This document shows positions 23,538 to 40,934 of a stretch of DNA of 64,000 nucleotides, in pieces. Where the stretch lies: NCBI GenBank assembly GCA_003223645.1, contig QHVT01000009.1, forward strand, positions 1 through 64,000, in the 5' to 3' direction. This DNA is from Acidobacteriota bacterium (lineage in GTDB: Bacteria; Acidobacteriota; Thermoanaerobaculia; Gp7-AA8). The position numbers were made by a program, and so were the translations under genes. Below the pieces are notes generated by a model. It saw only the letters and a list, made by a program, of their open reading frames with translations. It made no database searches and was not told the origin of the DNA. Each line of letters opens with the position of its first letter. Within the stretch, counting starts at the first letter, position 1.

Positions 23538-26500
23538 TCAGCTGTCGACCAACGTCCTCAATTGCCGCGACGCCACGGTGAGCATCGCCAGGTCGACGGC
23601 GTTCGCGGCGCGGAACTCGTTCATCGTCTGATCGACGCGCTCGACGACGCGCGGGCGTGCGGAGAGCCACGCATCGACGGGATTCGCGGCGCCGTTCGTT
23701 TCGGTGATGACGCGCGACGCGAGGGTGCTCTGGTAGTTGAAGAGATCGTCGACGAGGGTCGCGATCGCGCTCTTCTGCCACGGCGTTTCGGCGACGATCT
23801 TCGACGTCGCGTTGCGGAGGCTGTCGAGCGAGAGGCGCGCGCCGACACCGAAGTAGACGCGCGCGACCTCTTCGACTCCATGCGACGCGTCGCGGCGCGC
23901 GATACGCACGATGTCCATCGCCGACGTCATCACGTCGAGGCTGGCCACGCGCTGCGCGAGGTCGTCGGGGATGCCGTCGACGGTGAGCTCGGACTCGCGC
24001 ACGCGCACGCTGGAGAGCATCGACGCGGGCAGAATCGCGCCGAGGTTTTGTTGGATCGCGGCGATGCGCGGGCGGAACTCGGCGATCAATGCGGCGACGT
24101 CGAGCTTCTCGTAAGAACTGCGCAGCAGCCAGGTGATCGCGCGCTCGAGGAGGCCGGCCACGGCGATGAGCATGTCGATCTGCGCGCTGGCCGGCAGTTT
24201 GTTGTCGAGCGACTCGATCTCCGACCAGATCGTGCGGAGGTCGAACGAGTCGCGCATGATGATGAACGCGCGCGCGATGTCGGCCGGCGGCTTGCCGGTC
24301 TCGTCGCAGCTCTGCCACGCGAAGTTCGGCCGCACGCGGTTGACGATCGCGTTGGTGACGATCGTGGCGATGATCTCGCGGCGCAGTTTGTGCCGCTCGA
24401 TCGCGGCGCGAAAGCGCGCGCGGAGGTCGTCGGGGAAATACAAAACCAAATCGTCGACGAGTTGCGGGTCGTCGGGGAGATCGGACTTCAGCAGGTCTTC
24501 GTACAGCACGAGCTTCGCGTACGCGAGGAGCACCGCGATCTCGGGCCGCGTGAGACCGGTTCCCTGCGCGTGGCGGTCGACGATCGTCTCGTCGTCGGGC
24601 AAGCCTTCGGTGAGGCGATCGAGCTTGCCGGCCTTCTCGAGTCCGCGCATGAAGCGCGCCTGCGCGTCGAGCTGCGGCTCTCCGAGGGTGTGCGTGACCG
24701 AGATCGCCTGCGTCTGTTCGTAGTTGTCGCGCAGCACGAGGCGGCCGACGTCGTCCGTCATCTCGGCGATGATGCGGTTGCGCTCGTCGATGCCGGACAG
24801 TTCCTTGCGCGCGATCGCGTCGTACAGCGTGATCTTGATGTTGACTTCGTGGTCGGAGGTATCGACGCCGGCGGAGTTGTCGATCGCGTCGGTGTTGATC
24901 TTGCCGCCGCCGAGCGCGTACTCGATGCGGCCGCGCTGCGTGAAGCCGAGGTTCGCGCCTTCGCCGACGACGCGCACGCGGATCTCGTTGCCGTTCACGC
25001 GCATCGCATCGTTCGCGCGATCACGCGCCGCGGCCTGGTCTTCCCAGCTCGCCTTGACATATGTTCCGATGCCGCCGAGCCAGAGCAGGTCCGCGTTCGC
25101 GCGGAGAATCGCGCGCATCAATTCCGCCGGCGCGACGACGCGCTTCGGCAGCTCGAACAGCGCCTGCACTTCGTCCGACAGCGCGATCGTCTTCGCGCTG
25201 CGCTCGTACACCGCGCCGCCTTTCGACAGCAGCGACGTGTCGTAGCCGTTCCAGTTCAGGCGGTTGTCGAACATCCGCTTGCGCTCGGCGAAGCTCGTCG
25301 ACGGATTCGGATCGGGGTCCACGATGATGTGCGAGTGATTGAACGCGGCGAACAGTTTGATGTGATGCGAGAGCAGCATCGCGTTGCCGAACACGTCGCC
25401 GGACATGTCGCCGACGCCGACGACCGTGAAGTCCTCGGTTTGCGTATCGAGGCCGAGCTCGCGGAAGTGGCGCTTCACCGCCTCCCATCCGCCGCGCGCG
25501 GTGATGCCCATGCCTTTGTGGTCGTAGCCCGCGGATCCGCCTGACGCGAACGCGTCGCCGAGCCAGAAGTTGTATTCGCCGGAGATCGCGTTCGCGATGT
25601 CGGAGAACGTCGCCGTGCCTTTGTCGGCGGCGACGACGAGATACGGATCATCGGCATCGCGGCGCACGACGTCCTTCGGCAGGATCAGCTGATCGCCGTA
25701 CAAGTTGTCGGTGATGTCGAGCATGCCGCGCAGCAGCGTCTTGTACGACTCGACGCCTTCCTGCTGGAACGTCGCACGATCGGCGGACGGATTCTTCACG
25801 ACGAATCCGCCTTTCGATCCGACCGGCACGATGACGACGTTCTTCACCATCTGCGCTTTCATCAGTCCGAGAATCTCCGTGCGGAAGTCCTCGCGGCGGT
25901 CGGACCAGCGGATCCCGCCGCGAGCGACTTTGCCGCCGCGCAGATGGATGCCTTCCATCCACGGCGCGTACACGAAGATCTCGAACATCGGACGCGGCAG
26001 CGGCAGCTCGGGCACGAGCGCGGAGTCGAGCTTGAACGAGAGATAGAGTTTGCGATCGCCGTTTGAGTCGCGCTGGAAGTAGTTCGTACGCAGCGTGGCC
26101 TCGATGAGGCTCACGTACAGACGGAGGATGCGATCCTCGTCCGGAGCCGTGACGCGCTCGAGCGCGTCTTCGATCTGTGACCGGATGCCGAGCGACGCGC
26201 CTTTGCGTCCGAGCCCGACCTCGCCCATCGACGGATCGAAGTAGTTTTTGAAGAGCACGATGATGTTGCGCGTGATCGCCGGATGTTTCGCCAGCGTCTG
26301 CTGGATGTACGCCTCGCTGAGCGTGACGCCGACCTGCCGCAGGTACTTCGCGTACGCGCGCATGACGACGACTTCGTGCCACTCCAGCTCCGCGCCGAGG
26401 ACGAGGCGGTTGAAGCCATCGTTCTCGGCCTGCCGCGTCCAGACGCGGATGAACGCGTCCTGAAATTTTTCTTTCAGCGGCGCGAGGTCGTCCTGCATCC

Positions 26501-28358
26501 CTTCCGCGTCGAGGCTGAAGTCGCGGATGCGGACCGGCTCCTTCGCGCCGTAGGGCTGCACTTCGTACGGAACTTCGCGAAGCACCTTGAGCCCCATGTT
26601 CTCGAGGCGCGGCATGATCTCGGAGAGCGGGACCGGCGGACCGGCGTGGATGATCTTGCAGTGGAACTGCCGCTCTTCGCCGCGATGTCGATAGAGATCG
26701 ACGACCAGCTCGCCGGTCGCGAGCACGTGCTCGACGTTGCCGATGTCGAACAGCGCGGCGTGCGCGGAAAAGCGTTCCGCATATGCGATCGGGAACGCTT
26801 TCTTGTAGCGATGGTGCAGGTCGATGCCGACTTCCTCGCCCATCTCCTGCACGAGCGCATCGAGGAGTTTGTCTCCCCACGTGCGCGCGGCATCGTCGAT
26901 GAACGCTTCGACGCGTCGCGCGTCGACGTCAGGCACGCTGCCCGGCGTCGTACGCACGATGAACAGTCCGCGCGCCAGCGGCGAGTTCGTGATGTGGTCG
27001 TAGACCTCGGCGTCCCGGCCGGCAAACGCCTCCTCGAGAATCGCCTTCGCGCGGTCTTTGAATTCGGGCGTGTAGCGGTCGCGCGGAACGAAGACGTAGC
27101 AGGCGACGAAGCGCTCGAAGAGATCCTTGCGCGTGAAAAGCGCGACGCGCTGGCGCTCCTGCAAGAGGAGGATGCCGCGCGCGATCTCGAACAGCTCGTT
27201 GTCGGTAATCTGGAAAAACTCGTCGCGCGGAAAAGTCTCGAGGATGTCGACCAGCGCCTTGCCGTTGTGCGAATGCGGATCGAGTCCCGCGCGATCGAGG
27301 ACGCGCTTCGCCTTGAGGCGCAGCATCGGAATGTCGCGGACGCTGCGCTGATAGGCGGCGGAGGTGAAGAGTCCGAGGAAGCGATCCTCGCCGATCAGAT
27401 TGCCGGCGGAGTCGTAACGTTTGATGCCGATGCGATCGAGGCGCACCGGACGATGAATGAGGCTGCGGCGATTCGCCTTCGTGATGATGACGAGATCCTT
27501 GCGGCGCGCGTACTCGCTGTCGACCGCGCTGAGCGGACGCTGGTATCGCGCGGCGTCGCGAAGGTCGCGCGAGATGCCGAGTCCCGTCTCCGTCTCCGGC
27601 CGCAGGTAATCCGCGCCGCCGCGTGTCTCGAACGCATAGCGGCGATGGCCGAGAAAGATGAAGTGGCCCTGGTCGAGCCAGCGCAGGAACGCCTTCGCCT
27701 CCTCCACTTCTTCGGCGGGCATCGGCAGCGCCGCGGTCTCGAGCTCGGCGACGTCGTCAGTAAGTCGCTGGCGCATCGTGCGCCAGTCGGTGACCGCGAG
27801 TCGCACTTCGCGCAGGATGACTTCGAGCGACGCGCACATCGACTCGAGCTCGCCCGGCTCGGTCTCCTGATCGACTTCGACGTGCATGTACGACTCGACC
27901 ATCGTGCTCGTGCCGGCGCTGCCGGTATCGACGACTTCGAGCCGGTTGCCCGACGCGTCGCGCCGCGCGTGGATGATCGGATGCAGGAGCAGATGGATCT
28001 TGCGATCGCGCCTGTTGAACTCGGCGGTGACGGAGTCGACCAGGAACGGCATGTCGTCGTTCACGATCTCGACCACCGTGTGCTCGGTCTCGAATCCGTT
28101 CTCCTCGACCGTCGGATTGAAGAGGCGGATCTTCGGAAGGCCGGGCGTGCGCTGCACGCCGAACTCCCACAGCGAAAGCGCGCCGCCGAGGAGCGTGTCG
28201 AAGCTCGTGTAAATCACGTCGTCGGGCGCGACGTGGGCGAAATAGCGGCGGACGAAGTGCTCGGCGCTGTCAGCCTGAGCGGCCGGAACGCGCTTTTTCG
28301 CCTCCGCCGCGAGGCGGTCGACCAGGTCGACCTGCCGTTGTTCTGCGGTGATCGTCAT
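23538..28358 (-). CDS. gdhB: NAD-dependent glutamate dehydrogenase, large (180-kDa) type
   Basis: Protein of 1606 residues, the usual size for this family. It oxidises glutamate to 2-oxoglutarate and ammonium with NAD+ in the cytoplasm. The long N-terminal half has the ACT-like and helical regions (FLVDSVTAEFNRRDRKIHLL, FLRWLDQGHFIFLGHRRY). The catalytic domain starts near residue 830: VPVGSKGGFVVK (substrate Lys region), ADKGTATFSDIAN, DHKGMGITARG, VVGVGDMSGDVFGNA (nucleotide fold), HIIVDPDPN. A helical C-terminal domain follows. It is monocistronic, and no nearby regulator is apparent. The gene symbol follows Pseudomonas usage. Confidence 0.95.
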   Translation of the reverse strand: MTITAEQRQVDLVDRLAAEAKKRVPAAQADSAEHFVRRYFAHVAPDDVIYTSFDTLLGGALSLWEFGVQRTPGLPKIRLFNPTVEENGFETEHTVVEIVNDDMPFLVDSVTAEFNRRDRKIHLLLHPIIHARRDASGNRLEVVDTGSAGTSTMVESYMHVEVDQETEPGELESMCASLEVILREVRLAVTDWRTMRQRLTDDVAELETAALPMPAEEVEEAKAFLRWLDQGHFIFLGHRRYAFETRGGADYLRPETETGLGISRDLRDAARYQRPLSAVDSEYARRKDLVIITKANRRSLIHRPVRLDRIGIKRYDSAGNLIGEDRFLGLFTSAAYQRSVRDIPMLRLKAKRVLDRAGLDPHSHNGKALVDILETFPRDEFFQITDNELFEIARGILLLQERQRVALFTRKDLFERFVACYVFVPRDRYTPEFKDRAKAILEEAFAGRDAEVYDHITNSPLARGLFIVRTTPGSVPDVDARRVEAFIDDAARTWGDKLLDALVQEMGEEVGIDLHHRYKKAFPIAYAERFSAHAALFDIGNVEHVLATGELVVDLYRHRGEERQFHCKIIHAGPPVPLSEIMPRLENMGLKVLREVPYEVQPYGAKEPVRIRDFSLDAEGMQDDLAPLKEKFQDAFIRVWTRQAENDGFNRLVLGAELEWHEVVVMRAYAKYLRQVGVTLSEAYIQQTLAKHPAITRNIIVLFKNYFDPSMGEVGLGRKGASLGIRSQIEDALERVTAPDEDRILRLYVSLIEATLRTNYFQRDSNGDRKLYLSFKLDSALVPELPLPRPMFEIFVYAPWMEGIHLRGGKVARGGIRWSDRREDFRTEILGLMKAQMVKNVVIVPVGSKGGFVVKNPSADRATFQQEGVESYKTLLRGMLDITDNLYGDQLILPKDVVRRDADDPYLVVAADKGTATFSDIANAISGEYNFWLGDAFASGGSAGYDHKGMGITARGGWEAVKRHFRELGLDTQTEDFTVVGVGDMSGDVFGNAMLLSHHIKLFAAFNHSHIIVDPDPNPSTSFAERKRMFDNRLNWNGYDTSLLSKGGAVYERSAKTIALSDEVQALFELPKRVVAPAELMRAILRANADLLWLGGIGTYVKASWEDQAAARDRANDAMRVNGNEIRVRVVGEGANLGFTQRGRIEYALGGGKINTDAIDNSAGVDTSDHEVNIKITLYDAIARKELSGIDERNRIIAEMTDDVGRLVLRDNYEQTQAISVTHTLGEPQLDAQARFMRGLEKAGKLDRLTEGLPDDETIVDRHAQGTGLTRPEIAVLLAYAKLVLYEDLLKSDLPDDPQLVDDLVLYFPDDLRARFRAAIERHKLRREIIATIVTNAIVNRVRPNFAWQSCDETGKPPADIARAFIIMRDSFDLRTIWSEIESLDNKLPASAQIDMLIAVAGLLERAITWLLRSSYEKLDVAALIAEFRPRIAAIQQNLGAILPASMLSSVRVRESELTVDGIPDDLAQRVASLDVMTSAMDIVRIARRDASHGVEEVARVYFGVGARLSLDSLRNATSKIVAETPWQKSAIATLVDDLFNYQSTLASRVITETNGAANPVDAWLSARPRVVERVDQTMNEFRAANAVDLAMLTVASRQLRTLVDS

Positions 28359-28491: not shown

Positions 28492-30057
28492 TCAGCGCGA
28501 GCGCCCGAACGTCTGTCCGAAAAAATCTCCCGGTTTCCATTTCGGCCGCGCGTCGCGATTGGCGGCGGCGAGGCCGATGCGGAAGTCGAGCTCGATCGGG
28601 AGGAGCGCGGCGTCGAAGTCGAGCGGCTGCTGCAGGTCATCCGACGGCGAGTGGTAGCGCGTGCGGCGCCACACTTTCGTCTCTTCGGCCATGTCGATGC
28701 CCGGCGCGACGGCGTTGTAGCCGACGTTCGCGAAGATCGCGGGGATGCCGCGGCGGATGAACGGGTACTGGTCGCTGCGCACGAACACGACTTCTTCGGG
28801 TGCGCGATCGGCGCTGATCTCGATCTTCATCGCCTTCGCGGCGTCGCGCGCCATGTCGCCGAGGTCCGAGGAGTCGATGCCGTGCACGACGACGTCTCGC
28901 GTGCGATGCAGGAGCATCAGCATGTCGATGTTGATGTCGGCGACGATTGACTCGAACGGAACGGTCGGGTTGTTCGCGAAGTAGTCGGAGCCCTTCAGTC
29001 CTTTTTCTTCGCCGGTCGTGGCGACGAAGAGAATCGAGCGGCGCGGACGTTGCGGCAGCGCGGCGAACGCTTTCGCGATCTCGATGATCGAGGCGATGCC
29101 GGTGCCGTTGTCCATCGCGCCGTTGTTGATCGCGTCGCCGTTAACCGGCTCGGTGATGCCGAGGTGATCGAGGTGCGCGGTGTAGACGACGTACTCGTCG
29201 CGCAGTTTCGGATCGGAGCCGCACAGGATGCCGATCACGTTCGGACTCGTGAGATTGCGATGCGCGCTGATGAGATGAATGCGCGCGCTCATCGCGAGCG
29301 GCTTCGCCTTCGGCTGTCCGGCATCGAGTGACGCGAACACGGCGTCGGCCTCGTCGCCGAAGATCCACTTCGTCGACTCGAGATCGATTCCGACGCCGGC
29401 GCTGAGACTCGGATTGACGGCATGCGGCGCGCCGTCGGCTTGCATCCAGTGCATCGTGCCGAGCTTCGACTGCCGCGTGACGCGCTCCCACGGTGAGCGC
29501 AGCGCTTCTTTCGGCGACTCCAGTGTGATCAGCGCGATCGCGCCGTGCTTCGCCGCGTTCTCGATCTTGTTCAGCGACGAGCTGTGATGCGCGCGAATCG
29601 CGTTCGCAAACGATGGCGGCGCGCCGGGAAAGACGGCCGCGATTTTTCCGCGCACGTCGACGTTCGCGTAGTCGTCATAATTCTGATCAGCCGCAGTGAT
29701 GCCGAAGCCGGCGAAGACGATCGGTGCATCGATCGTGCGATCGTCCTGCAGCGGATCGCCCTGCGTGACGAACGACTCGAACGCGCGCAGCGTGACCGGC
29801 TCCGCGCCGTCGCGCGTCAGCGTGACGGTCGAATCGCGACTCGCGACCGTCTCGCGAAACGGCACTTCCTGAAACGAAGTCTCGAGTCCCGCCGCGGCAA
29901 ATTGCGCGGCGACGTAGTTCGCGGCGATGCGATGACCGCGCGTTCCCGTTCCTCGTCCTTCGAGGAGATCGTTCGCGAGAAATGTGATGTGCGCTTTGAT
30001 GGCCGCGGGGGAGAAGGCGGCGTTAGTGGCGAGGATCGTCGCGAGGAGTAGTCTCAT
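28492..30057 (-). CDS. Exported M28-family metallopeptidase (aminopeptidase type)
   Basis: Protein of 521 residues with a signal peptide (MRLLLATILATNAAFSPA) and probable periplasmic or secreted location. A PA-type insert (about residues 90-210) lies between the first helix and the catalytic domain. Zinc-binding and catalytic residues are visible in order: TAHLDHLG (His, Asp), AMDNGTG (Asp), TGEEKGLKGS (Glu-Glu), NIDML (Asp) and HSPSDDL (His). It probably removes N-terminal residues from peptides. AGGAG directly before the ATG at 30057 fixes the start; longer readings upstream reach into the island and have no ribosome site. Confidence 0.93.
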   Translation of the reverse strand: MRLLLATILATNAAFSPAAIKAHITFLANDLLEGRGTGTRGHRIAANYVAAQFAAAGLETSFQEVPFRETVASRDSTVTLTRDGAEPVTLRAFESFVTQGDPLQDDRTIDAPIVFAGFGITAADQNYDDYANVDVRGKIAAVFPGAPPSFANAIRAHHSSSLNKIENAAKHGAIALITLESPKEALRSPWERVTRQSKLGTMHWMQADGAPHAVNPSLSAGVGIDLESTKWIFGDEADAVFASLDAGQPKAKPLAMSARIHLISAHRNLTSPNVIGILCGSDPKLRDEYVVYTAHLDHLGITEPVNGDAINNGAMDNGTGIASIIEIAKAFAALPQRPRRSILFVATTGEEKGLKGSDYFANNPTVPFESIVADINIDMLMLLHRTRDVVVHGIDSSDLGDMARDAAKAMKIEISADRAPEEVVFVRSDQYPFIRRGIPAIFANVGYNAVAPGIDMAEETKVWRRTRYHSPSDDLQQPLDFDAALLPIELDFRIGLAAANRDARPKWKPGDFFGQTFGRSR

Positions 30058-30170
30058 AGGTCTCCTAGTGCTTGTCGAGGATTTCTCGACTTGATGGGGG
30101 TGCGTTTTCACCAAGTGGCTCGCGACTCGTCGTACTGATCGTCCGCCCGCTTTCGGTACGAAGCGCCACA

Positions 30171-30386
30171 TCAACGCGGGTAGACGGCTGAGTGTTCTCG
30201 ATACTTCCGGAGGAAGGCTTCAAGAAACGCGACCACCGCAGGCTGGTCGGCAAGGAACGTCATGAGTTCCTCGTCTTCTAGATCCTCCTCGGGCAGATCG
30301 TCCATGTCATCCTGAAGAATCAATTGCCACTGAACGTCCTCTTCCTCCGTGATCCCGTAGGTCTGGACCCAGCCAGTCATATTCAC
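30171..30386 (-). CDS. Small acidic protein of unknown function (island)
   Basis: 71 residues from a GTG at 30386, which has GGAGG eight bases upstream; an ATG two codons later is also possible. It is strongly acidic in the middle (DDMDDLPEEDLEDEEL) and has a helical C-terminus (VVAFLEAFLRKYREH). Its first codons overlap the small ORF at 30307-30468 in a different frame, so the two could be a coupled pair or one gene with a frameshift. It runs away from the helicase operon, so a regulator, inhibitor or DNA-mimic role is possible but only guessed. Confidence 0.55.
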   Translation of the reverse strand: MNMTGWVQTYGITEEEDVQWQLILQDDMDDLPEEDLEDEELMTFLADQPAVVAFLEAFLRKYREHSAVYPR

Positions 30387-30522: not shown

Positions 30523-33510
30523 ATGATTGAGGAACGGCCAATCCGTCTTCACCCGGCGCAGCGCCGGTACCAAGCGGAGGATCTCGTGCGCCTTCGGCGC
30601 TCGGACGAGCGACGTCGTTACTCCGCCCCCCAGCGCGCCGCCAAGGTGGATGCCAACCCTCATCAAATCAACGCGGTGATCTTCGCTCTCGGTCGTCTTC
30701 GCGAAGGCGGTTGCATCCTCGCCGACGAGGTTGGCCTCGGAAAGACGATCGAAGCGGGGCTCATCATCGCCCAGGTCATCGCGGAAGGCGCGCGACGCGT
30801 CCTGCTCATCACCCCGAAGCCGTTACTCGGGCAGTGGCGTCAGGAGCTTTACCAGCTTTTCAACATCGATGCTGTCGAAGCAGAGCCCCGCATTGGCGGG
30901 TTCGACGGAGAGGGTGTGTTCCTCGTCGGGCGTGAGGCTGTAGGCAGCGTGAAGGGACGCGACGCGATTCTCCTCTCGGATGAGTTTGACCTTTGCGTGA
31001 TCGATGAGGCCCACGAGGTCTTCGCCGGTATTTACAAGCGCTTCGACAAATTCGGCCAATACAGAGACGACGCGACCGAGGCACAGACCGCAGGACGCCT
31101 GCGCGAACTGTTGATGGCCAGCCGCACTCCCGTGCTTCTTCTCACAGCAACTCCGATGCAGAACAATCTCGTGGAGCTCTGGGGGCTTGTGCAGTATGTC
31201 GATCCGCTTGGCACGCTGCTCGGTGACCTGGCGACATTTCGGGAGGTCTTCTGCGGCGTGGATGACCGTCATCTCGTCGAAGGTCAGGAAGAGGATCTGC
31301 GCAACCGCCTTCGCGTAGTCCTGCAGCGAACGCTGCGCCGGGAGGCACAGGACTTTCTCGAAAAACCGTTCGTAGGCCGTGAGGCGAGGCTCTTCGAATA
31401 CACGATGAGCCCTGCTGAGAAGATGCTGTACGACGATGTGACGAAATACTTGCTCGAACCAGGCATCCTCGCGTTTCAAGGCCGGCAGCGGCAGCTTCTC
31501 CTCCTCGGGTTCCACCGTCGCATGGCATCGTCCACCCGAGCCCTTGCATCGAGCCTCGAGCGCGTCGCGATGAGGCTCCGGAGAATGCTCGGGGGAACAG
31601 AAACCTCACAATCGGACGAGGAAGATAGCCAGAGCCTTCTCGCCGATCTCGAGGATGACGGCGGCAAGTCCTCGGACGGACAGGCGGTCGCGGAGGATGA
31701 AGGAAAGGTGCCGCGCAATACCGATGCCTTGAAAGCAGAGCTCAAGCGCGTCGAGAACTACATCGAACGTGCAGAAAAGCTCGGAGCGGACGACAGCAAG
31801 TTCCGCGCATTGCTGCGGTCCCTTCGCTTTGTCACCGAAAGGACTGGCGGCTCACATGGCGCAAGGAAACTGGTCATTTTTACCGAGTCACGCGTAACCC
31901 AGAGCTACCTGCGCGATCGTCTGGTTGAGAGCCGTCTGATTACAGACGAAGAGATCACGCTCTTCTCCGGAACCAATGATGCGAAGCGTGCCCAATTAGC
32001 GCTGGAGCATTGGCGCGCGGAAGTTCCACAAGGCGAGGGAGCGAAGGTCAATCTTGACATCGCGACGCGACTGGCACTAGTCCATGAATTCAAGACGCGC
32101 ACGCGGGTTTTCATCTCCACAGAAGCCGGCGCCAAGGGGTTGAACCTTCAGTTCTGCGACACCGTCGTCAATTATGATCTTCCATGGAATCCGCAGCGCA
32201 TCGAACAGCGTATCGGCAGATGTCACCGCTACGGCCAGCAGCACGACGTGACTGTGATCAACTTCCTGGCGAAGGACAACCTGGCGCAGGCCCTGACGTT
32301 CGACATCCTGAGCCAGAAGCTCGAGTTGTTCGGAACGGTTCTTGACGCCTCGGATCAAGTCCTCCACCGGGCATCTGGAAACCTTCGTGGTGAAGTCCTC
32401 GTCAGCGTTCTTGGTACCGACTTTGAGTCCGAGCTTCATCGCATCTACGATCGCGCCAGAACGCTCGAAGAAGTCGCCGCGGAACTCGAAGCTCTTCGAG
32501 ACAAAGTGACCGAGGAGCGTAGACGCTTCGAGGAAGCTCACGCACGAACCGCTGATCTCATCGAGACGCGGTTCGAAGAAGGCCTGCAGAGGGTGTTCCG
32601 TGGTCACAAGGAGGGGACGACGGGCGCGCTCGCCGAGCTCGATCGAGATCTGGAATCGGTCGTGACCAGCTACCTGGATGCTTTGGCGATTCCCTATCGT
32701 CGGGATCAGGTCGCAAACGAAGACCTGCTTCATGTCTCGCCCTCGCCCTTGTTGCCGCTGGCGCTAGCCGAAGGCATCAGTGCTGCGATCGGACCATCGA
32801 AGGAGCACACATCTCTTCATCTGAGTCACCCACTCGTCTTGGCCGCCGTAGCAGATGCGCGAGTCTCGTCCGCGAGGATGCCGGCGCTAGTCAGACCGCC
32901 CGAGAACGCTCCTGATCAGCTCCTTCAGCTCGCAGGAAAGCGCGGACGCCTCCGCGTGATCAAGGTCTCGTTCGACGGATTCGAGCGGATCGAGTTGCTC
33001 GTTCCAATCTTCATGCTTGAGAGCGGAGAGATCATCCCCCAGCCTCTCGCAGAGATGCTCCTGCACGGAACGATGCGTGATTCCGCAGCGCCGCTGATTC
33101 CCGCGATCAGCGACGACGCGCTGCAGGACGCAGCGGATGAGGCCCTATTCTCGATTCAAGCCTCAGTCGACCTCGATGAGCAAAAGCGTTTTCAGAGAGC
33201 GACGCAGCAGGCCGATCGTTTTATCGAGGATCGTCTTTTGGTCCTCAGGAGACGCCGCGAGACTCTAGAGAACAAAATCGATGAGGCGCGAGCGCGACGT
33301 GATGGCGCGACAGGCTCCGCGGCGCGTTCCGAGGCTGAGCACGCCCTCGTCAATGTCGAGACTGCCCTCGTGGAAGTCGACGGAGCGATCGAGCGACTCG
33401 AGAACCGCGACGACGAAACCTTCCAGCGCTACCAGGAGCACATCCATCAGCGTCGCTACACGCCCCCGCGCGTCGATCGGCTATTCGATCTGGATCTGGA
33501 GGTCGAATGA
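30523..33510 (+). CDS. SNF2/RapA-type helicase of an island operon
   Basis: Protein of 995 residues, superfamily 2 (COG0553-like). The N-terminal lead includes ANPHQINAVIFAL. Motif I is ADEVGLGKTIEAG (residues 68-80), motif II DEAH (161-164), motif III LLTATPMQNN (about 207-215). The second RecA domain has STEAGAKGLNLQF (about 532-544), NYDLPWNPQRIEQRIGRCHRYGQ (motif VI, Arg fingers) and a long coiled-coil C-terminus. All ATPase motifs look intact, so it should be an active DNA (or nucleoprotein) translocase. The TGA overlaps the next start (ATGA). Codon use is less GC-extreme than flanking genes. Confidence 0.9.
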   Translation: MIEERPIRLHPAQRRYQAEDLVRLRRSDERRRYSAPQRAAKVDANPHQINAVIFALGRLREGGCILADEVGLGKTIEAGLIIAQVIAEGARRVLLITPKPLLGQWRQELYQLFNIDAVEAEPRIGGFDGEGVFLVGREAVGSVKGRDAILLSDEFDLCVIDEAHEVFAGIYKRFDKFGQYRDDATEAQTAGRLRELLMASRTPVLLLTATPMQNNLVELWGLVQYVDPLGTLLGDLATFREVFCGVDDRHLVEGQEEDLRNRLRVVLQRTLRREAQDFLEKPFVGREARLFEYTMSPAEKMLYDDVTKYLLEPGILAFQGRQRQLLLLGFHRRMASSTRALASSLERVAMRLRRMLGGTETSQSDEEDSQSLLADLEDDGGKSSDGQAVAEDEGKVPRNTDALKAELKRVENYIERAEKLGADDSKFRALLRSLRFVTERTGGSHGARKLVIFTESRVTQSYLRDRLVESRLITDEEITLFSGTNDAKRAQLALEHWRAEVPQGEGAKVNLDIATRLALVHEFKTRTRVFISTEAGAKGLNLQFCDTVVNYDLPWNPQRIEQRIGRCHRYGQQHDVTVINFLAKDNLAQALTFDILSQKLELFGTVLDASDQVLHRASGNLRGEVLVSVLGTDFESELHRIYDRARTLEEVAAELEALRDKVTEERRRFEEAHARTADLIETRFEEGLQRVFRGHKEGTTGALAELDRDLESVVTSYLDALAIPYRRDQVANEDLLHVSPSPLLPLALAEGISAAIGPSKEHTSLHLSHPLVLAAVADARVSSARMPALVRPPENAPDQLLQLAGKRGRLRVIKVSFDGFERIELLVPIFMLESGEIIPQPLAEMLLHGTMRDSAAPLIPAISDDALQDAADEALFSIQASVDLDEQKRFQRATQQADRFIEDRLLVLRRRRETLENKIDEARARRDGATGSAARSEAEHALVNVETALVEVDGAIERLENRDDETFQRYQEHIHQRRYTPPRVDRLFDLDLEVE

Positions 33511-34673
33511 CTGCTGCAGGTGAGGACGACATCATGTTGAAACTACTGCACACCGCAGACTGGCATCTCGGAAGGCTCTTTCGGAGTTTCCCGGAGGAAG
33601 GAGCGCTGAAGCTGAGCCGGGCGCGCCTGGAGGTGCTCGATAGAATTCTCCTAACGGCAGACCGGTACGCGGTGGATGCTGTTCTCTGTGCTGGTGATCT
33701 CTTCGACGAGCCGAATCCTTCGAAGGTGTGGTGGGAACCGGCCGCGGCTAAGCTCAGGAAGCACAGTTCCAGCAAGCGACCGATCTTTCTGCTGCCGGGG
33801 AACCATGATCCGCTCATCGCGGATTCGGTTTGGGCGGAAGGCCACAAATTCCGAAGTCTGCTGCCCGAGTGGATTCATGTCGTGGATCGGGATAACTTCG
33901 AGTACATCCTCGCGAACGGCGCAGTGCTCTATGCCGTTCCGTGCATGTCGAGAGCTGGTCAGCGCGATCCCACGGACTTCATTCCGAGCCGCGCCGCCGG
34001 CGATGATCGGATTCGGATCGGAATGGTACATGGCAGCACGTTTGACGCAAAAGACTGGCAGACCAACTTCCCGATTAACTCCGATGCTGTCCTCAATCGG
34101 GGTCTCGACTATCTCGCGATCGGCGACACGCACGGATTTCGTTTCGTGCCAACGCACCGAGAGCACCCTCCGACGATCTATCCGGGCGCGCCGGAGGCCA
34201 CGGCCTTTGACGAGAAGGACCCCGGCAACGTTGCCGTCGTCTTTTTCAATCGACAGCGCGTGGCTACGGTTCGCCAGGAACGCGTTGCTCGCTGGACCTG
34301 GGAAGAGCGAAAAATCACGACACTCGACGACCTTCGAGATCTCGTCCGCCGCCCGGACCTGGACGACCGCGTGCTGCGGCTTCGAATCAACATGCAGGTC
34401 GCCGCGCCGGAATATGACGAGGCGGAGCTACTGCTCGATGAGCTTCAGGGAACCGCCGCCCGACACGCCAGAGTCGGGGTGCTTGACCTGGACCGTCAGG
34501 GACTTGAGCTGGAAACCGCAACAGTCGACCAGTACTGCGTCGATCTTCCGGATGTCTTGAGATCTGCAGTCACTCGATTGAAGAGCGTGGCAGAGGATCC
34601 AGCGCAGCGCCTCGTGGCGGAACGCGCCCTCTTTCATCTCTATCGCTCCTCGAAGAGGAGGAAGGCATCGTAG
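33507..34673 (+). CDS. YhaO/SbcD-like Mre11-type nuclease
   Basis: Protein of 388 residues. The five metallophosphoesterase motifs are present: TADWHLG, CAGDLFD, LPGNHDP, MVHGST and GDTHGF, so metal binding and nuclease activity are likely. The C-terminal part (residues about 270-380) is the adaptor/capping region in Mre11 relatives. An ATG overlapping the helicase stop is coupled by ATGA; a second ATG at 33534 (MLKLLHTADW) would give a tighter domain start. It ends in TAGTG shared with the next gene, so helicase, nuclease and ATPase are translated as a unit. Confidence 0.9.
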   Translation: MTAAGEDDIMLKLLHTADWHLGRLFRSFPEEGALKLSRARLEVLDRILLTADRYAVDAVLCAGDLFDEPNPSKVWWEPAAAKLRKHSSSKRPIFLLPGNHDPLIADSVWAEGHKFRSLLPEWIHVVDRDNFEYILANGAVLYAVPCMSRAGQRDPTDFIPSRAAGDDRIRIGMVHGSTFDAKDWQTNFPINSDAVLNRGLDYLAIGDTHGFRFVPTHREHPPTIYPGAPEATAFDEKDPGNVAVVFFNRQRVATVRQERVARWTWEERKITTLDDLRDLVRRPDLDDRVLRLRINMQVAAPEYDEAELLLDELQGTAARHARVGVLDLDRQGLELETATVDQYCVDLPDVLRSAVTRLKSVAEDPAQRLVAERALFHLYRSSKRRKAS

Positions 34674-37600
34674 TGCGTTTGACGAGACTCCTGGTCGACG
34701 CGTTCAAGGCGATCAAGCGGGCCGAGATTGATTTCGGCCCGGGCCTGAACATCCTGTACGGTCCGAACGACCTTGGTAAGTCGACGCTCGCCACTGCCGT
34801 TCGCGCGGCACTGCTCGTTCCACCCAGCTCGGCGGAGGCGCAGACCTACACCTCGTGGTTCGGTTCTGACAGCCCACATGTTGAGCTGACACTTGTCGAT
34901 CCCGATGGTCATTTCTGGAGGGTGAAGAAGACCTTCGGCACATCATCACCCTCGTCTGCCGAGCTGCTGCATTCAAAGGACTCCATTACCTTCACGCAAG
35001 ACTGCAAAGCGCGACAAGTCGAGGAGAAGCTTCGCGCGATACTTGGTTGGGGGATTCCGGCACCGGGTGGAAAGACCGGACCTCGCGGCGCTCCGACCAG
35101 CTTTCTCGCGAATGCGCTGCTTGCGACACAGACTAACGTGGATGACATTCTTCAACGCAGCATTTCAGACGACCTGGATGACTCAGGAAAACTGCGACTG
35201 ACGAAAGCGCTGTCGGCCCTCGCGCAGGATCCATTGTTCAAGGAAGTGCTGGGGATCGCGCAACGCGAAGTCGATCTTTTCTTCACAGAGACAGGGAGGC
35301 GCAAGCGCGGGCAGTTCTCTCGATTCAAGGAAGCCGATGACAAGGTAAAGGCACTCACGACTGAGCTCGGGGTGCTGGGTCGCCAACTGGAAGACTCCTC
35401 TGCGATTGAGAAAGAGGTGAACGATCTTCGAGAAGCGCGCTCACTCGCCCTCGCCCGGATCGACGAGGCCAACGCACATCTCACCGTGGTCGAAGGTCGC
35501 TGCAAGAACACCGCGGCTCGAATAGAAGTTGCGGACGGCATCGCCGGGGCAAAGACTGCGTTGGCTGGCATCGATGCGGAGATTAATCGACTCAACATGG
35601 TCACGCTCGAGCTAGAAACGCTGGAAGAGAGTGTCAAGAAGCGGGAGGACGTTCTTGCCTTCGCCGACACGGCGTGCCACAAGGCTGAGGCGGCCGTGCA
35701 CGCGGCGGAAGAAGCGCATCGCATTGCGACCAGCGAGGACTCTGAGCGCGAACGAGAACTGCGACGGGCGCAGCTTTCCGAGCGCGTCTCCGACCTGACG
35801 GCAAAGCTTCTCGCGCTCGGAAGCAGGAAAACAGAGATCGACGCTGGGATCAACGCACGAAACGACGCCAAGCAGGCGCAGAACGCCGTCAACTCCGCGA
35901 AAGCGACGTTGGCGCAAGCGCTCAAGAATCGTGAGCATGCTTGCGAGGAAGTTCAGGCTGGAGCCATCGAGCTCGAAGTCGCACGAGCGATCGTTGCGTT
36001 TATTCGCTGGCGCGTCTCGCTTTCTGCAATCGAGGAAGCAACCAAGGCAAGGGACTCCGCACTCAGCGCAACAACGGAGGCGGACAACAAAGACATCGAG
36101 GCCGCCGCTCTCGAGAAAAAAGCAGGGAAGACTGAGCTGAAGCTTGTCAAACTGTCCGAGAGCTTCCCCAGTGCGGAACAATCCAACGCTTTACTCCAAC
36201 TCGAACGCGATCTGGAGAAAGCCGAAGCGGCGTTGGGTGGAGGGATCACCGTGGCGGTCAGGCCATCGGCGGGCGTTGCGATCCGCGCCGGCATCGACCA
36301 GCAGCCCTCGGTCGATGTCGAGATCTCGAAGAATCGCACGTTCGAAGCTGAGCGCACGATGAGGCTGGCCATTGCTGATCTTGTCGAAGTCGACATCACG
36401 GCCGGCAGCGCGGAGAAACGAAAAGCGGTCGAAGCGCTTCGCGCTCGGTGGCGCGACGAAGTGCTCCCAATCTTCAGCAAGGCAAAAGTGAAGACGAGGG
36501 TTGAGATCGAAGACCTCGTTACTGCACTGAAGCGAGATCAATTGGCGCTTACTGAACAAAAGAGCACCGTAGAACGACTGCGTGCGGAGGCAAGAAGCCT
36601 TCGGGAGCAGGCAAAGATCCATGAGGAAAGAGCGGGTGCAGGAACGATCGCCCTCGAAGATGTTGGGACTCGAAAATCAGCAATCGGCGCTCACGAGGTC
36701 CAGAGCCTTGAGGAACGCTACCGAAAGGCAGGCAGCCCCCCTGAATCGAAAGCGGAACTCCGGCACCAGGAACTGTCGAAGGAGCATCGTGCTTTGCAGG
36801 ACGAGTTGGCGGCGTGCGAGCAAAGTGTGACGATGGCCGAGTACCAGCTATCCGAAGCCCAGAAACGAGCGACAGAATTGGCAGCGCAACGAGATGCGAA
36901 GGTTTCGGCGTTCCAGTCGATGGACCTTGACGCACTCCAATCGCAAGTCGGCGAACAGCTCCTCTCTCTGCAACGGGAGCAGGCCGAGACAGCGCTGCAT
37001 ATGCAATCGCTTGCAGCAGAGGCCAGCAGCGAAGGTGAGAAGACCCAGTCCGCACTGCTGGAAACGCAAGAAGCCCATCGGATCGCGAAGGAGCGCCGCG
37101 ATCATGCTTTTGCTACGCTCGGCGCATCGCGTGTCGACTGCAGCGTCCGCAGAGGAGCGTTGAACGAAATCCGCGCACAAGTTGAAAAACTGGATCGGAA
37201 TGCCGCAGTGCTTCTCGTCTCTCAACGAGAAGCTGAGTTGGCTGCGTTTCCGATCGAGACGCCGGCAACACTGGTTGACGTGGAGTCCGCCAGAAGCAAC
37301 GTGGAAACGGCAAACCGGGAACACAATCGAGTGAAGGAAGAACTCAACATGAAAGAGGGAGCGCTATCCAAAGTGGGTGGCGCGGCTCTGCGCGAGGAAG
37401 TCGAGAGGATCGAGGAAGCGCGTGTTGCGGCAGAGACACACGAGCGTGAGCTGGAAGTCGATGCGGATGCCTGGAAGCTTCTCCGTGACACGCTCCGCGA
37501 AGTTGAGAACGATGAAGGTGCTCATCTCGGGCGCGCCCTAGCAGGTCCCGTCACGACAAGATTTGAAGAGCTCACAGGTGGGCGATATCGAGGGCTGCGG

Positions 37601-37975
37601 CTCGATGCCGCACTTAAGTCAGAAGCTCTCGAGGCGACGGCGACAAGCACGAGTGGCGACCAGGTCCTCGATGCGTTGTCCGTCGGCACGCGCGACCAAC
37701 TCGCGGTCTTGATCCGGCTTACGATCGCCGATCAGCTCAAAAGCACTATCGTACTCGACGATCATCTTGTGCACACTGATCCGGCCCGGCTGCTGTGGTT
37801 CCGCGGCATGTTGCAAAGAACTGCAGTCAACACGCAGGTCATCGTTCTGACGTGTCGCCCGGAAGACTATCTCCCTCATGAAGGGCTGCTAATCGATACT
37901 CAAATCCATGACGCTGCAGCGGGCACCATTCGAGCGATCAACGGCGCGCTGGCTATCAAATGTTGGGAACCGTGA
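34673..37975 (+). CDS. YhaN-like Rad50-type ATPase with long coiled coil
   Basis: Protein of 1100 residues. The ATP-binding head is split between the ends: Walker A GPNDLGKST (30-38) and, near residues 1000-1040, the signature SVGTRDQLAVLIRL and Walker B IVLDDHLVHTD. LDD...D with the GT.DQL signature is closer to YhaN (COG4717) than to SbcC or Rad50. Between them are about 850 residues of Glu/Lys/Ala-rich coiled coil. I found no CxxC zinc hook anywhere, so dimer closure must differ from Rad50. The GTG start overlaps the upstream TAG and has GAGGAGG upstream. Confidence 0.9.
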   Translation: MRLTRLLVDAFKAIKRAEIDFGPGLNILYGPNDLGKSTLATAVRAALLVPPSSAEAQTYTSWFGSDSPHVELTLVDPDGHFWRVKKTFGTSSPSSAELLHSKDSITFTQDCKARQVEEKLRAILGWGIPAPGGKTGPRGAPTSFLANALLATQTNVDDILQRSISDDLDDSGKLRLTKALSALAQDPLFKEVLGIAQREVDLFFTETGRRKRGQFSRFKEADDKVKALTTELGVLGRQLEDSSAIEKEVNDLREARSLALARIDEANAHLTVVEGRCKNTAARIEVADGIAGAKTALAGIDAEINRLNMVTLELETLEESVKKREDVLAFADTACHKAEAAVHAAEEAHRIATSEDSERERELRRAQLSERVSDLTAKLLALGSRKTEIDAGINARNDAKQAQNAVNSAKATLAQALKNREHACEEVQAGAIELEVARAIVAFIRWRVSLSAIEEATKARDSALSATTEADNKDIEAAALEKKAGKTELKLVKLSESFPSAEQSNALLQLERDLEKAEAALGGGITVAVRPSAGVAIRAGIDQQPSVDVEISKNRTFEAERTMRLAIADLVEVDITAGSAEKRKAVEALRARWRDEVLPIFSKAKVKTRVEIEDLVTALKRDQLALTEQKSTVERLRAEARSLREQAKIHEERAGAGTIALEDVGTRKSAIGAHEVQSLEERYRKAGSPPESKAELRHQELSKEHRALQDELAACEQSVTMAEYQLSEAQKRATELAAQRDAKVSAFQSMDLDALQSQVGEQLLSLQREQAETALHMQSLAAEASSEGEKTQSALLETQEAHRIAKERRDHAFATLGASRVDCSVRRGALNEIRAQVEKLDRNAAVLLVSQREAELAAFPIETPATLVDVESARSNVETANREHNRVKEELNMKEGALSKVGGAALREEVERIEEARVAAETHERELEVDADAWKLLRDTLREVENDEGAHLGRALAGPVTTRFEELTGGRYRGLRLDAALKSEALEATATSTSGDQVLDALSVGTRDQLAVLIRLTIADQLKSTIVLDDHLVHTDPARLLWFRGMLQRTAVNTQVIVLTCRPEDYLPHEGLLIDTQIHDAAAGTIRAINGALAIKCWEP

Positions 37976-38957
37976 GGCGGATGGCCCCACCTTGTCAGCG
38001 CAGCGGGCACCGGAGTCGATGCGACGCGTGCGGCGAAGGCAGTGCCGTCTACGACTCCTTCTGTGTCTAGGTCCGAGGGAGGTGTACGCGCCTATCGAGT
38101 CCGCCGAGGAACGCGCGGCCGAACTCGTACTCTCCAGTTCAGGAATCCACGCATTCGGTACTGCTACTACGAGAAGGACTGGCGCTCGCGTCATTCCGAC
38201 GTACAGGACGCGCCGAGCTGACATCGTGTCAGTCAATGGTGTGTCCTCTGTCGTGAGGAGGATTGCATCCGCCGGATGAACATCTCTACGGTCAGCAGGC
38301 ACGTAGACGCAGACGGCGGGGAACTCCTGTCCTTTCACCTGGTGAACCTTGCTGATGCGCGAGGTCGCGACGGCCTCGGTACTCGGGAGGTAGTCCGTCG
38401 CTGGGAGGGTGAAGACGTTCTTGCTGCCCTCCACCGCTTTCCGGAAGCGAGTCCCGAGCTTCTCGTGCGTTCCCGTGAGCGCAGATGCCTGTCGCTCGAA
38501 AACAACCTTCACGCGCGTCGCCCACGCCTCGACCGTTTCTCCGTCGACCTCCGCACTCAGCTCCTCGAGGGTTTGCATCACCTTCGAGCGCCATTCGAGC
38601 CAACCGAGAGGTATCGCTTCCAGCGCGTCGACCGTCGGTGGACGCCCTCGATTGAACGCGAGTTGCGATAGCAAGCGTTCCGTCCGAAGAAACGCGTCGA
38701 GAACTTTCCCTTCAGATCGTGCTCTGAGAGCGCCCATGACCTGTCCGTACGCTGGCGAGAAAAGGGGCATGCGCTTCCGTTGCATCCCTCCTTACCTCTG
38801 CACGTCGCTCTCGTTCCAACGCGAGCACGATGCCTTCGGAAACGGGAATGTTACATTCTGCGCACATGCTGGCGAACGCTGCGCCTACGGCTGCAACCGC
38901 GCCGTCTTTCGGTCTTTGTGTGAAGTCGTGCGTCAAGAGCACTGTTCTAGTGTCGCG
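37889..38957 (-). pseudogene. Remnant of a UvrD/Rep-like helicase (C-terminal part)
   Basis: Two frames together read as the C-terminal half of a superfamily-1 helicase. The upstream frame (38957 to about 38790) gives VLLTHDFTQRPKDGAVAAV and SEGIVLALERERR; the other (from about 38785) gives LFSPAYGQVMGALRARSEGK, VHQVKGQEFPAVCVY and RRVLYVGMTRAP, the last resembling motifs V-VI. The N-terminal ATPase half is missing, and a frameshift separates the two frames. Upstream it stops at a repeat element (38981). The tail overlaps the end of the YhaN-like gene, so only the middle is convincing. It is probably a relic of a larger defence or repair locus. Confidence 0.7.
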
Positions 38958-38980: not shown

Positions 38981-39106
38981 CCCCTCCGCCCTTCGGGCAC
39001 CTTCTCCCCGCAAGCGGGGAGAAGGGCGACAAGTCTCGCGATATTCGTGTTTGTTGCCCCTCGCCCCGCTTGCCGGGGAGAGGGTGCCCGAAGGGCGGGA
39101 GGGGCG
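38981..39106. repeat. Palindromic element, CCCCTCCGCCCTTCGGGCACC family
   Basis: Outer arms CCCCTCCGCCCTTCGGGCACC and GGTGCCCGAAGGGCGGGAGGGG enclose two GC-rich hairpins (CTCCCCGCAAGCGGGGAG, CCCCGCTTGCCGGGG). It marks the right boundary of the helicase remnant and is followed by a CTAGGAGACCAGGTGACTAGGAGACTC word next to the glycosyltransferase stop codon. Confidence 0.85.
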
Positions 39107-39134
39107 TGCTAGGAGACCAGGTGACTAGGAGACT

Positions 39135-40934
39135 CTACGCCGGTCCCCACGCGAGATACCGCAACCGCAATCCTAACGTTCTTCCGTCGTCTCCCGGTCC
39201 GAGGGTGTGATCGATCGACAGCTCCAGCGTGTTCGGCGCTGCGCCGTTCGACGCCGGCACGTGCACGTTCCTCTCGAGATACCCCTCGGTCGTTCGAAAG
39301 CGATCGACGACGTTACCGTTGATGCGCACGGTGATCTCGGGATTCTTGCTCATCAACTCGCCGGGGATGCCGAGGTGCATGCGGAGGATGGCGGGACCGG
39401 CTTGCGGCGGAAGGATCGTGATCGAGCGGCCGCCCATCCATCGCCATTCGGCAATGTCCGCGGATTCGGGTCCGTACCAGCCGGAGACGAATTGCGGACG
39501 CGCGGTGAGCGGCTCGAGCGCGATCTCGAAATAGTGGCGGCGCGCGATGTTCCAGAGCCGGCCGCGCTCCCGCGTGAAGACGAGTCCGCGCGGCGTCGTC
39601 GATGTGACCTCGGCGAGCAGCCACGCGCGCGGCACCTGCGCGAGCGGCAGTGCGCGATCGTCGATGACGTCGCGGTACGGAACGTTCGGCGCGAAGAGAT
39701 CGACGAACTTCGACATCGTGTGGCCGACATACAACTGATCGCGCTTCGGATCGATCGTGCGGTTCAGCGTCTGTGCGGCGAGAACGGACGGCGCGACGGT
39801 CGTGCGCACGACGTTCAACTCGGGCGCGGTGTAGGCGATGAACGCGATGACGAGCGCGGATGCGAGCGCGGACTGGATCAGGCCTATGTGGCGACCGCTG
39901 CCCTCAGCGGTCGCGGTGCCGCTGAGGGCAGCGGCACCCACAACAGACGCGAGTCGGCGAATGCCATCGGCGACGAAGATCGCGAACATCGGCTGGTAGC
40001 CGATCGAGAAGCGGCTGATGCTGAAGCGGTCGAGCATCAGCCAAGCAAAGATCGCAAACGGGCCGAATGTCAGGACGTTCCAGAGCATCGAGCGATCGCG
40101 GTCGCGAATCGCGCCGATGATCGCGCCGAGCGCGAGCAGCGACGCGATCACGCTCAGCACCGGCGACTGGTATTGCTTGATGAAGAAGCGATCGAAGAGA
40201 CGCCACAACGCGGGACGATCGGGACTACGGAAGGAGTCGATGCGCGAGATGTAGTCGCCGTGCTCGCGGACGACGCGCAGGTATTCGTGCAGCGAGCCGG
40301 TCGCGTAGATCGCACCTCCGAAACAGATCGCGACCACGACGATCACGATCAGCGCAGCGATCGCGATCTCACCGAAACTTCGTTTGCGTGACGCGTAAAT
40401 GGCGGGAAAGAGTCCGACGAGCAGATTCTGCGGACGAATGCCGATCGCGAGCGCGAGCAACAACGCACCGAGAAAGTAGGCTTTGTTGTCTTCTGCCCCG
40501 CGCAGCAGCATCGCCGCGGCGAAGCAGACCAGCACGATCGACGGGATGTCGCTGAACGCGCCGCCGCCGAAGAACCAGACGTTGGGGAAGAACGCGAAGA
40601 GCGTCGCGGCGACGACGGACGTCGTGAAATTGTCATCCCGAGCGTGAGCGAGGGACCTGGGTGGGTGGGGCTGCACGGCGTGCTCTTCGCGCCCCGCCCG
40701 CCCGGGTCCCTCGCTACGCTCGGGATGACGGGCGGCGAACAGTTCGCGAGCGAGCAGGTACACCGCCGGAAAAATGAGCATGCCGAAAACGAGATTCACG
40801 ATTTGCAGCGCGTGAAAATCGCTGTCGGCAAAGAATCGCGCGACGTGGGCGATGCCGATGTAGGCGGGGAAGCCGGGCGGGTGCGGGTGATGAAGCGTGA
40901 CGTTGTAGTCGCGCATCGCCAGCGTGAAGAGCAC
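39135..40934 (-). CDS. GT39-like membrane glycosyltransferase (ArnT/PMT type)
   Basis: About 599 residues from GTG 40934, with about ten membrane spans. Membrane glycosyltransferases of this class move sugars from lipid-phosphate donors on the outer side of the membrane. The frame stays open to 41069 and reads SLWDWDEVLFTLAMRDYN, where the acidic WDE motif is what the family needs at its first loop. No ATG/GTG/TTG precedes it, so the true start is uncertain (see findings). Two palindromic elements are read in frame: one after ARELFA (40632-40729) and one after SVVGAAALSG (39888-39942). The C-terminus is a soluble beta-type domain. Confidence 0.75.
   Translation of the reverse strand: MLFTLAMRDYNVTLHHPHPPGFPAYIGIAHVARFFADSDFHALQIVNLVFGMLIFPAVYLLARELFAARHPERSEGPGRAGREEHAVQPHPPRSLAHARDDNFTTSVVAATLFAFFPNVWFFGGGAFSDIPSIVLVCFAAAMLLRGAEDNKAYFLGALLLALAIGIRPQNLLVGLFPAIYASRKRSFGEIAIAALIVIVVVAICFGGAIYATGSLHEYLRVVREHGDYISRIDSFRSPDRPALWRLFDRFFIKQYQSPVLSVIASLLALGAIIGAIRDRDRSMLWNVLTFGPFAIFAWLMLDRFSISRFSIGYQPMFAIFVADGIRRLASVVGAAALSGTATAEGSGRHIGLIQSALASALVIAFIAYTAPELNVVRTTVAPSVLAAQTLNRTIDPKRDQLYVGHTMSKFVDLFAPNVPYRDVIDDRALPLAQVPRAWLLAEVTSTTPRGLVFTRERGRLWNIARRHYFEIALEPLTARPQFVSGWYGPESADIAEWRWMGGRSITILPPQAGPAILRMHLGIPGELMSKNPEITVRINGNVVDRFRTTEGYLERNVHVPASNGAAPNTLELSIDHTLGPGDDGRTLGLRLRYLAWGPA
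39888..39942. repeat. GTGGCGACCGCTGCC palindrome inside the glycosyltransferase gene
   Basis: CCGCTGCCCTCAGCGG and CCGCTGAGGGCAGC arms, flanked by GTGGCG and CACCCAC, are translated in frame as an Ala/Gly/Thr-rich loop between two membrane spans. Shorter sibling of 8185-8280 and 28384-28479. Confidence 0.8.
40632..40729. repeat. GTCATCCCGAG palindrome inside the glycosyltransferase gene
   Basis: Arms GTCATCCCGAGCGTGAGCGAGG and CCTCGCTACGCTCGGGATGAC, with further GGGACC / GGGTCCC pairs, enclose a GC-rich centre. In the coding frame it gives ARHPERSEGPGR ... PPRSLAHARDD, a polar loop between membrane helices. Same family as 331-415. Confidence 0.85.

Follow-up and report, generated by a model that had tools for sequence, protein, structure and literature searches.

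The first 64,000 nucleotides of contig QHVT01000009.1 of an Acidobacteriota bacterium (assembly GCA_003223645.1), hereafter the window, carry three directly adjoining genes on the forward strand (Table 1). They are predicted to code for a SNF2-family helicase of the RapA/DrmD type, an Mre11/SbcD-like nuclease and a split ABC ATPase of the YhaN/Rad50 type, and we refer to them together as the block. A first-pass annotation of this DNA had read the start/stop overlaps ATGA and TAGTG as the mark of a co-translated operon, a reading that is borne out by overlaps of 4 and 1 bases, the former of which is found again in 20 of 39 block copies. Ratios of non-synonymous to synonymous substitution rates (dN/dS) of 0.09–0.47 show purifying selection on each of the three genes; in the comparison of genomes G050 and G085 the values are 0.20 for the helicase, 0.25 for the nuclease and 0.44 for the ATPase, the fastest-evolving gene of the block, next to 0.13 for GltX. 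The same gene order across phyla, the purifying selection and the recurring 4-base overlap together exclude a chance arrangement. One copy, that of G079 (L033, 17087–19500), displays short in-frame repeats expanded in both the helicase linker and the spacer between helicase and nuclease; there the gap between these genes is 412 bp, and the near-identical G050 copy is without those repeats.

Table 1. Features of the block and its surroundings in the window
Feature	Position	Strand	Remarks
SNF2-family helicase/dsDNA translocase, RapA/DrmD-type	30523..33510	+	995 aa, ATG start
Mre11/SbcD-like nuclease	33507..34673	+	388 aa, ATG start
YhaN/Rad50-type split ABC ATPase	34673..37975	+	1100 aa, GTG start
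ATGA, helicase stop/nuclease start	33507..33510	+	overlap of 4 bases (translational coupling)
TAGTG, nuclease stop/ATPase start	34671..34675	+	overlap of 1 base
Inserted segment	30175..39134		8.96 kb, between peptidase and glycosyltransferase-like genes
Truncated C-terminal fragment of UvrD/GajB-like helicase	37889..38785	-	PADLOC GajB 1.1e-19; inside inserted segment
Peptidase gene, conserved flank	28492-30174		name from reading of the sequence
Glycosyltransferase-like gene, other flank	39135-40934		name from reading of the sequence
NAD-glutamate dehydrogenase, adjoins peptidase gene	23538-28358		name from reading of the sequence

The association of these genes extends well beyond the window. 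GTDB genomes were scanned with five nucleases and 80 genome loci were taken, comprising 28 close nuclease loci (43–72% identity) and 52 ordinary SbcD/YhaO loci, the next of which stand at 36% identity or less over long matches. The helicase gene lies directly upstream of the nuclease gene in 27 of the 28 close loci and an ATPase match lies downstream in 25, with two of the three gaps being contig ends; among the 52 ordinary loci there is no case of a neighboring helicase gene. In a second set, made up of genomes from sampled Myxococcota groups that were found by the nuclease profile alone, the helicase is present in 8 of 10. The first-pass annotation had suggested looking for a conserved three-gene block, rare linkage of which would have told against the idea, and such a block is what these counts reveal. 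We conclude that the three genes represent a dedicated unit with near-obligate linkage. The departures from it are few: one close locus (L058) has the nuclease and ATPase without the helicase; of the two exceptions in the second set, G992 (L189, 7197–9518) has upstream an open reading frame (ORF) that shows no helicase motifs but is similar to the block helicase in its helical C-terminal part, and thus seems to be a remnant retaining this part, and G520 (L185, 7961–9013) has a divergent nuclease–ATPase pair without a helicase, in which the nuclease is 35% identical and has lost its metal ligands. Among the families listed around the 28 loci, no fourth gene is conserved.

The helicase is matched by the Pfam SNF2-rel_dom and Helicase_C models, and its motifs (DEVGLGKT, DEAH, TATP and GLNLQ...PQRIEQRIGRCHR) are mostly invariant in 23 relatives. 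Its best PADLOC match is DrmD (2.3e-124, residues 39–667), followed by BrxH, HmaA and DpdE; against NCBIfam DrmD_b it scores 419 bits, where the cut-off is 950, and it is also below the RapA equivalog cut-off (135.9 versus 576 bits). The motor occupies residues ~39–614 and is followed by a C-terminal alpha+beta domain (~690–995) with a long helical hairpin (864–960); Pfam has no match above cut-off for this C-terminus. An AlphaFold model, with a predicted local distance difference test score (pLDDT) of 72.6 overall and ~90 over residues 690–995, has E. coli RapA as its top match in the PDB, and no solved structure is closer when the full length is compared. In a maximum-likelihood tree, a branch with support of 100/97 sets the 26 block helicases apart, and their sister group consists of DrmD-like helicases, six of which score 605–718 bits against PADLOC DrmD. 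Within the RapA type, the closest kin of the block helicase are hence the DrmD-like helicases and not RapA itself, which corrects the first-pass annotation; plain RapA identity was rejected on the score under the RapA cut-off and the position of the clade on the DrmD side. Three plasmid-borne members of the sister group (L167, L168 and L169) are preceded by a small helix-turn-helix gene and followed by genes for a DNA methylase and a type III-like helicase.

The nuclease matches the Pfam Metallophos model and falls under the curated SbcD cut-off (65.8 versus 77.65 bits). Its AlphaFold model, built with 28 sequences (pLDDT 89.7), matches Mre11/SbcD with Z ~25 over 280–300 residues at 20–23% identity, and seven of its metal-binding or catalytic residues (D18, H20, D64, N99, H100, H175 and H209) are invariant in the relatives. 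Its motif V reads GDTHG, that is, GDxH where Mre11 has GHxH, and the second ligand of this motif is Asp207 instead of His in all 28 block nucleases. In 22 canonical loci with a match reaching this far the residue is His in 13, Asp in 5 and Glu in 4, a rough count that rests on gapped alignments of low identity. The earlier description of the Mre11-type ligands as intact accordingly holds at all positions but one, which is itself conserved, Asp having replaced His in every copy.

The ATPase scores over the Pfam cut-off for AAA_23, just below that for SMC_N, and at 21.9 bits just under the cut-off of 22 for AAA_27; a profile built from 17 of its relatives matches Rad50 in the PDB. It displays the motifs GPNDLGKS, LSVGTRDQ and IVLDD and a long coiled coil, with a Walker B ending in DD, like the plain YhaN of genome G099. 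The presence of the LSxGTR(E/D)Q signature and of LDD agrees with its previous assignment to the YhaN-type split ATPases with intact motifs, and so does the reported lack of a CxxC zinc hook, which is missing from all 20 ATPases examined. The apex has no Pfam match above cut-off.

The block is thinly spread over distant lineages: it was found in 4 genomes out of 396 in the window’s own phylum (Acidobacteriota), 10 out of 145 in the order of Archangium, 7 out of 284 in the phylum to which a Nannocystaceae metagenome-assembled genome (MAG) belongs and 1 out of 195 in a gammaproteobacterial order, a prevalence of ~0.5–7% of the sampled genomes. A copy is also present in the cultured Paraliomyxa miuraensis (L054). 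In the helicase tree the partner of the window sequence is a deltaproteobacterial MAG, and the two lie inside a Myxococcota clade (100/100). Two further copies from Acidobacteriota fall in a clade of gammaproteobacteria, and the copy of a Holophagales member is joined to Polyangiaceae. The phylogeny indicates that the operon has moved horizontally across phyla, and repeatedly so; its distribution is patchy in the manner of an accessory element. The canonical SbcCD is not being replaced by it, because SbcD over the cut-off is present in 5 of 26 block carriers and 11 of 101 relatives, that is, no more rarely in the carriers; the block as a stand-in for a lost SbcCD was rejected on this basis.

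A genus designated g20 offers a view of one chromosomal slot, between gltX and glnS, across 15 genomes: it holds the block in 3, is empty in 7, and contains Xre-RES in 3, MNT plus Xre in 1 and a mixed content in 1 (HEPN and MNT were assigned by Pfam, RES and Xre by reading of the sequences). The Xre-RES toxin–antitoxin modules lie at L201 3332–4194, L202 2461–3320 and L204 2382–3241. In the mixed slot of G099 (L199, G099:C154, 675–6529), MNT-HEPN, a plain YhaO-YhaN pair and Xre occur together. The block copy of G085 adjoins MNT-HEPN and has beside it what is left of a RES gene, its last 29 codons. The block and the plain YhaO-YhaN pair thus occupy one and the same position among toxin–antitoxin modules, and comparison of insertion sites shows the block to be an accessory module whose slot can also be taken by such modules.

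In the window, too, the block lies in an inserted segment. The two flanking genes are ~0.33 kb apart without the block in G012 and ~1.36 kb apart, again without it, in G003, as against 8.96 kb in the window; G001, of the same genus, lacks the block and carries different genes. Because synteny with family members extends over both flanks, contamination of the window genome was rejected. No integrase was noticed in the 8.96 kb segment. The UvrD/GajB-like fragment in it is convergent with the ATPase gene, whose end it overlaps, and covers only positions 427–567 of the 581 of the GajB model, with the N-terminal part missing; it was dismissed as a fourth component, there being no homologue in the 80 genome loci. 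Short inverted GC-rich repeats (38990–39110) are situated between this fragment and the next gene, near the right edge of the segment. A small acidic ORF of 71 aa on the minus strand (30171–30386), with no Pfam match, overlaps the start of the peptidase gene.

Joint transfer of the three genes between distant phyla and their residence in toxin–antitoxin slots point to what is probably an undescribed DNA-processing machine for defence. We view the block as a mobile DNA-processing complex, the most likely purpose of which, held with somewhat better than even confidence, would be the destruction of invading phage or plasmid DNA. The nuclease and ATPase could form a head of the Mre11-Rad50 type, which would hold on to DNA ends or unusual junctions in an ATP-controlled manner. 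The translocase might pump along duplex DNA, stripping it of bound proteins, and deliver or activate this head, with cutting back of the DNA as the outcome. Since the operon has no methylase, target choice would depend on the ends, topology or replication state of the DNA and not on base marks. A fuller proposal is put forward tentatively, at a little short of even chances: the block would be a so far undescribed system against phages or plasmids, in which a DrmD-like translocase of duplex DNA powers an Mre11-Rad50-type nuclease that lacks the hook and has a changed active site, and which tells self from foreign DNA independently of methylation. The accessory distribution, the cross-phylum transfer, the shared slot, the kinship of the helicase and the GajB relic all suggest a role in defence. 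Several observations weigh against it. The block was not found on 72,556 plasmids, in 50,697 phage records or on IMG/VR contigs, collections that are poor in Myxococcota and Acidobacteriota, and carriage by a phage, virus or plasmid was rejected on this result. Among the families listed, most named Pfam families flanking the 28 loci are housekeeping ones, and only ~4 of 92 flanking proteins are defence-like (one kinase, one methylase, AbiEi and AbiL, by reading of the list), both being statements without a control set. Furthermore, the nearest characterised pair, YhaN/SbcE, has been reported as a repair factor. The enrichment near defence genes anticipated in the first-pass annotation is accordingly not evident in this count around the 28 loci, but in genus g20 the block shares a slot with toxin–antitoxin modules.

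The chief competing explanation, which we consider rather unlikely though far from negligible, is that the block is a repair or end-resection machine of the host chromosome, analogous to the archaeal HerA-NurA-Mre11-Rad50 system, with the RapA-type motor clearing breaks or stalled forks of proteins and the Mre11/YhaN-like pair processing the end. Relatives of Mre11-Rad50 act in repair, the archaeal linkage of nuclease, helicase, Mre11 and Rad50 genes provides a precedent (PMC2288612), and the mostly housekeeping, chromosomal flanks, the purifying selection on all three genes and the lack of any other SbcD-like gene in the window genome would all fit such a role. A repair machine is harder to reconcile with a presence so sparse that most members of the same genus lack the block, with repeated cross-phylum transfer, with the swapping with toxin–antitoxin modules in one slot and with a helicase whose sister group sits in restriction-like loci. 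A reduced or variant DISARM or BREX-related system, which would have kept only the DrmD-like motor and would use the Mre11-like pair where DISARM has its methylase and remaining Drm components, could explain why DrmD models give the best helicase match, but it is improbable in view of the separate clade of the block helicases and their score under the DrmD_b cut-off; moreover, neither DrmA, DrmB, DrmC nor a methylase is found near the block in the window or is conserved around the 28 loci among the families listed. The absence of these partner genes led us to reject DISARM as such, as the first-pass annotation had also done. We give still less credence, and very little, to the notion that the target of the helicase is RNA polymerase, as for E. 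coli RapA, with the operon handling transcription–replication conflicts rather than foreign DNA: RapA is indeed the closest full-length solved structure, but the helicase is strictly paired with a DNA nuclease, its sister clade sits in restriction-like loci and the operon is accessory in distribution, all of which speaks against this.

If the block does serve in defence, bacteria would have in it a means of recognising invading DNA without methylation, and it would parallel the antiviral function that Mre11-Rad50 has in animal cells; should its role be repair, a mobile machine for end processing would likewise be unusual. Both claims are directly testable, because the block is a clean three-gene unit with natural presence/absence pairs.

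In the open-access literature no system of matching make-up was found, which accords with the earlier remark that no described defence system is known to combine such a helicase with the nuclease–ATPase pair; preprints and subscription papers lie mostly outside that literature, so that a published name is possible. RapA/BrxHII-like helicases do occur in accessory defence systems such as ARMADA, BRIGADE, TALON and BREX-related ones, but the texts of the YprA/ARMADA survey (PMC12458937) and the survey of BREX-related systems (PMC12839542) mention no Mre11 or SbcC component, and neither Mre11 nor SbcC is mentioned in the CoCoNuTs survey (PMC11090510). As for Lamassu, the block has a weak LmuB match (1.3e-12) and no LmuA partner. 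With the archaeal HerA-NurA-Mre11-Rad50 cluster, the block shares the linkage of a motor with Mre11-like and Rad50-like genes (PMC2288612); however, HerA is a hexameric bipolar helicase and not a SNF2 one, the block is without NurA, and the archaeal cluster is general in hyperthermophilic archaea, unlike this sporadic module. SbcCD/Mre11-Rad50 resembles it in the nuclease fold and the Rad50-like head, but the block has an extra motor gene, and SbcCD identity was rejected on the absent zinc hook and the score under the SbcD cut-off. DrmD of DISARM, BrxHII of BREX and RapA share with it the motor and the full-length RapA-like architecture, the DrmD-like proteins being its sister clade, and differ in that the block helicases stand apart as a clade and have Mre11-like and YhaN-like partners. 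Similar in layout are the YhaO-YhaN pairs of the Bacillus subtilis SbcE type, in which a metallophosphatase nuclease precedes a split ABC ATPase with an LSxGT(R/Q)(E/D)Q signature, an LDD Walker B and no zinc hook, and of which the plain pair in G099 fills the same chromosomal slot; yet the block nuclease is only ~26% identical to that of G099, has GDxH in place of GHxH, and with its ATPase is nearly always tied to the helicase. Judged by its protein sequences, the block is thus an Mre11-Rad50-type pair of the YhaO-YhaN branch that has been joined by an operon to a DrmD-like motor. It brings together the RapA/DrmD-type translocases of restriction-like systems and the Mre11-Rad50-type end processors, which, to our knowledge, had been known only apart.

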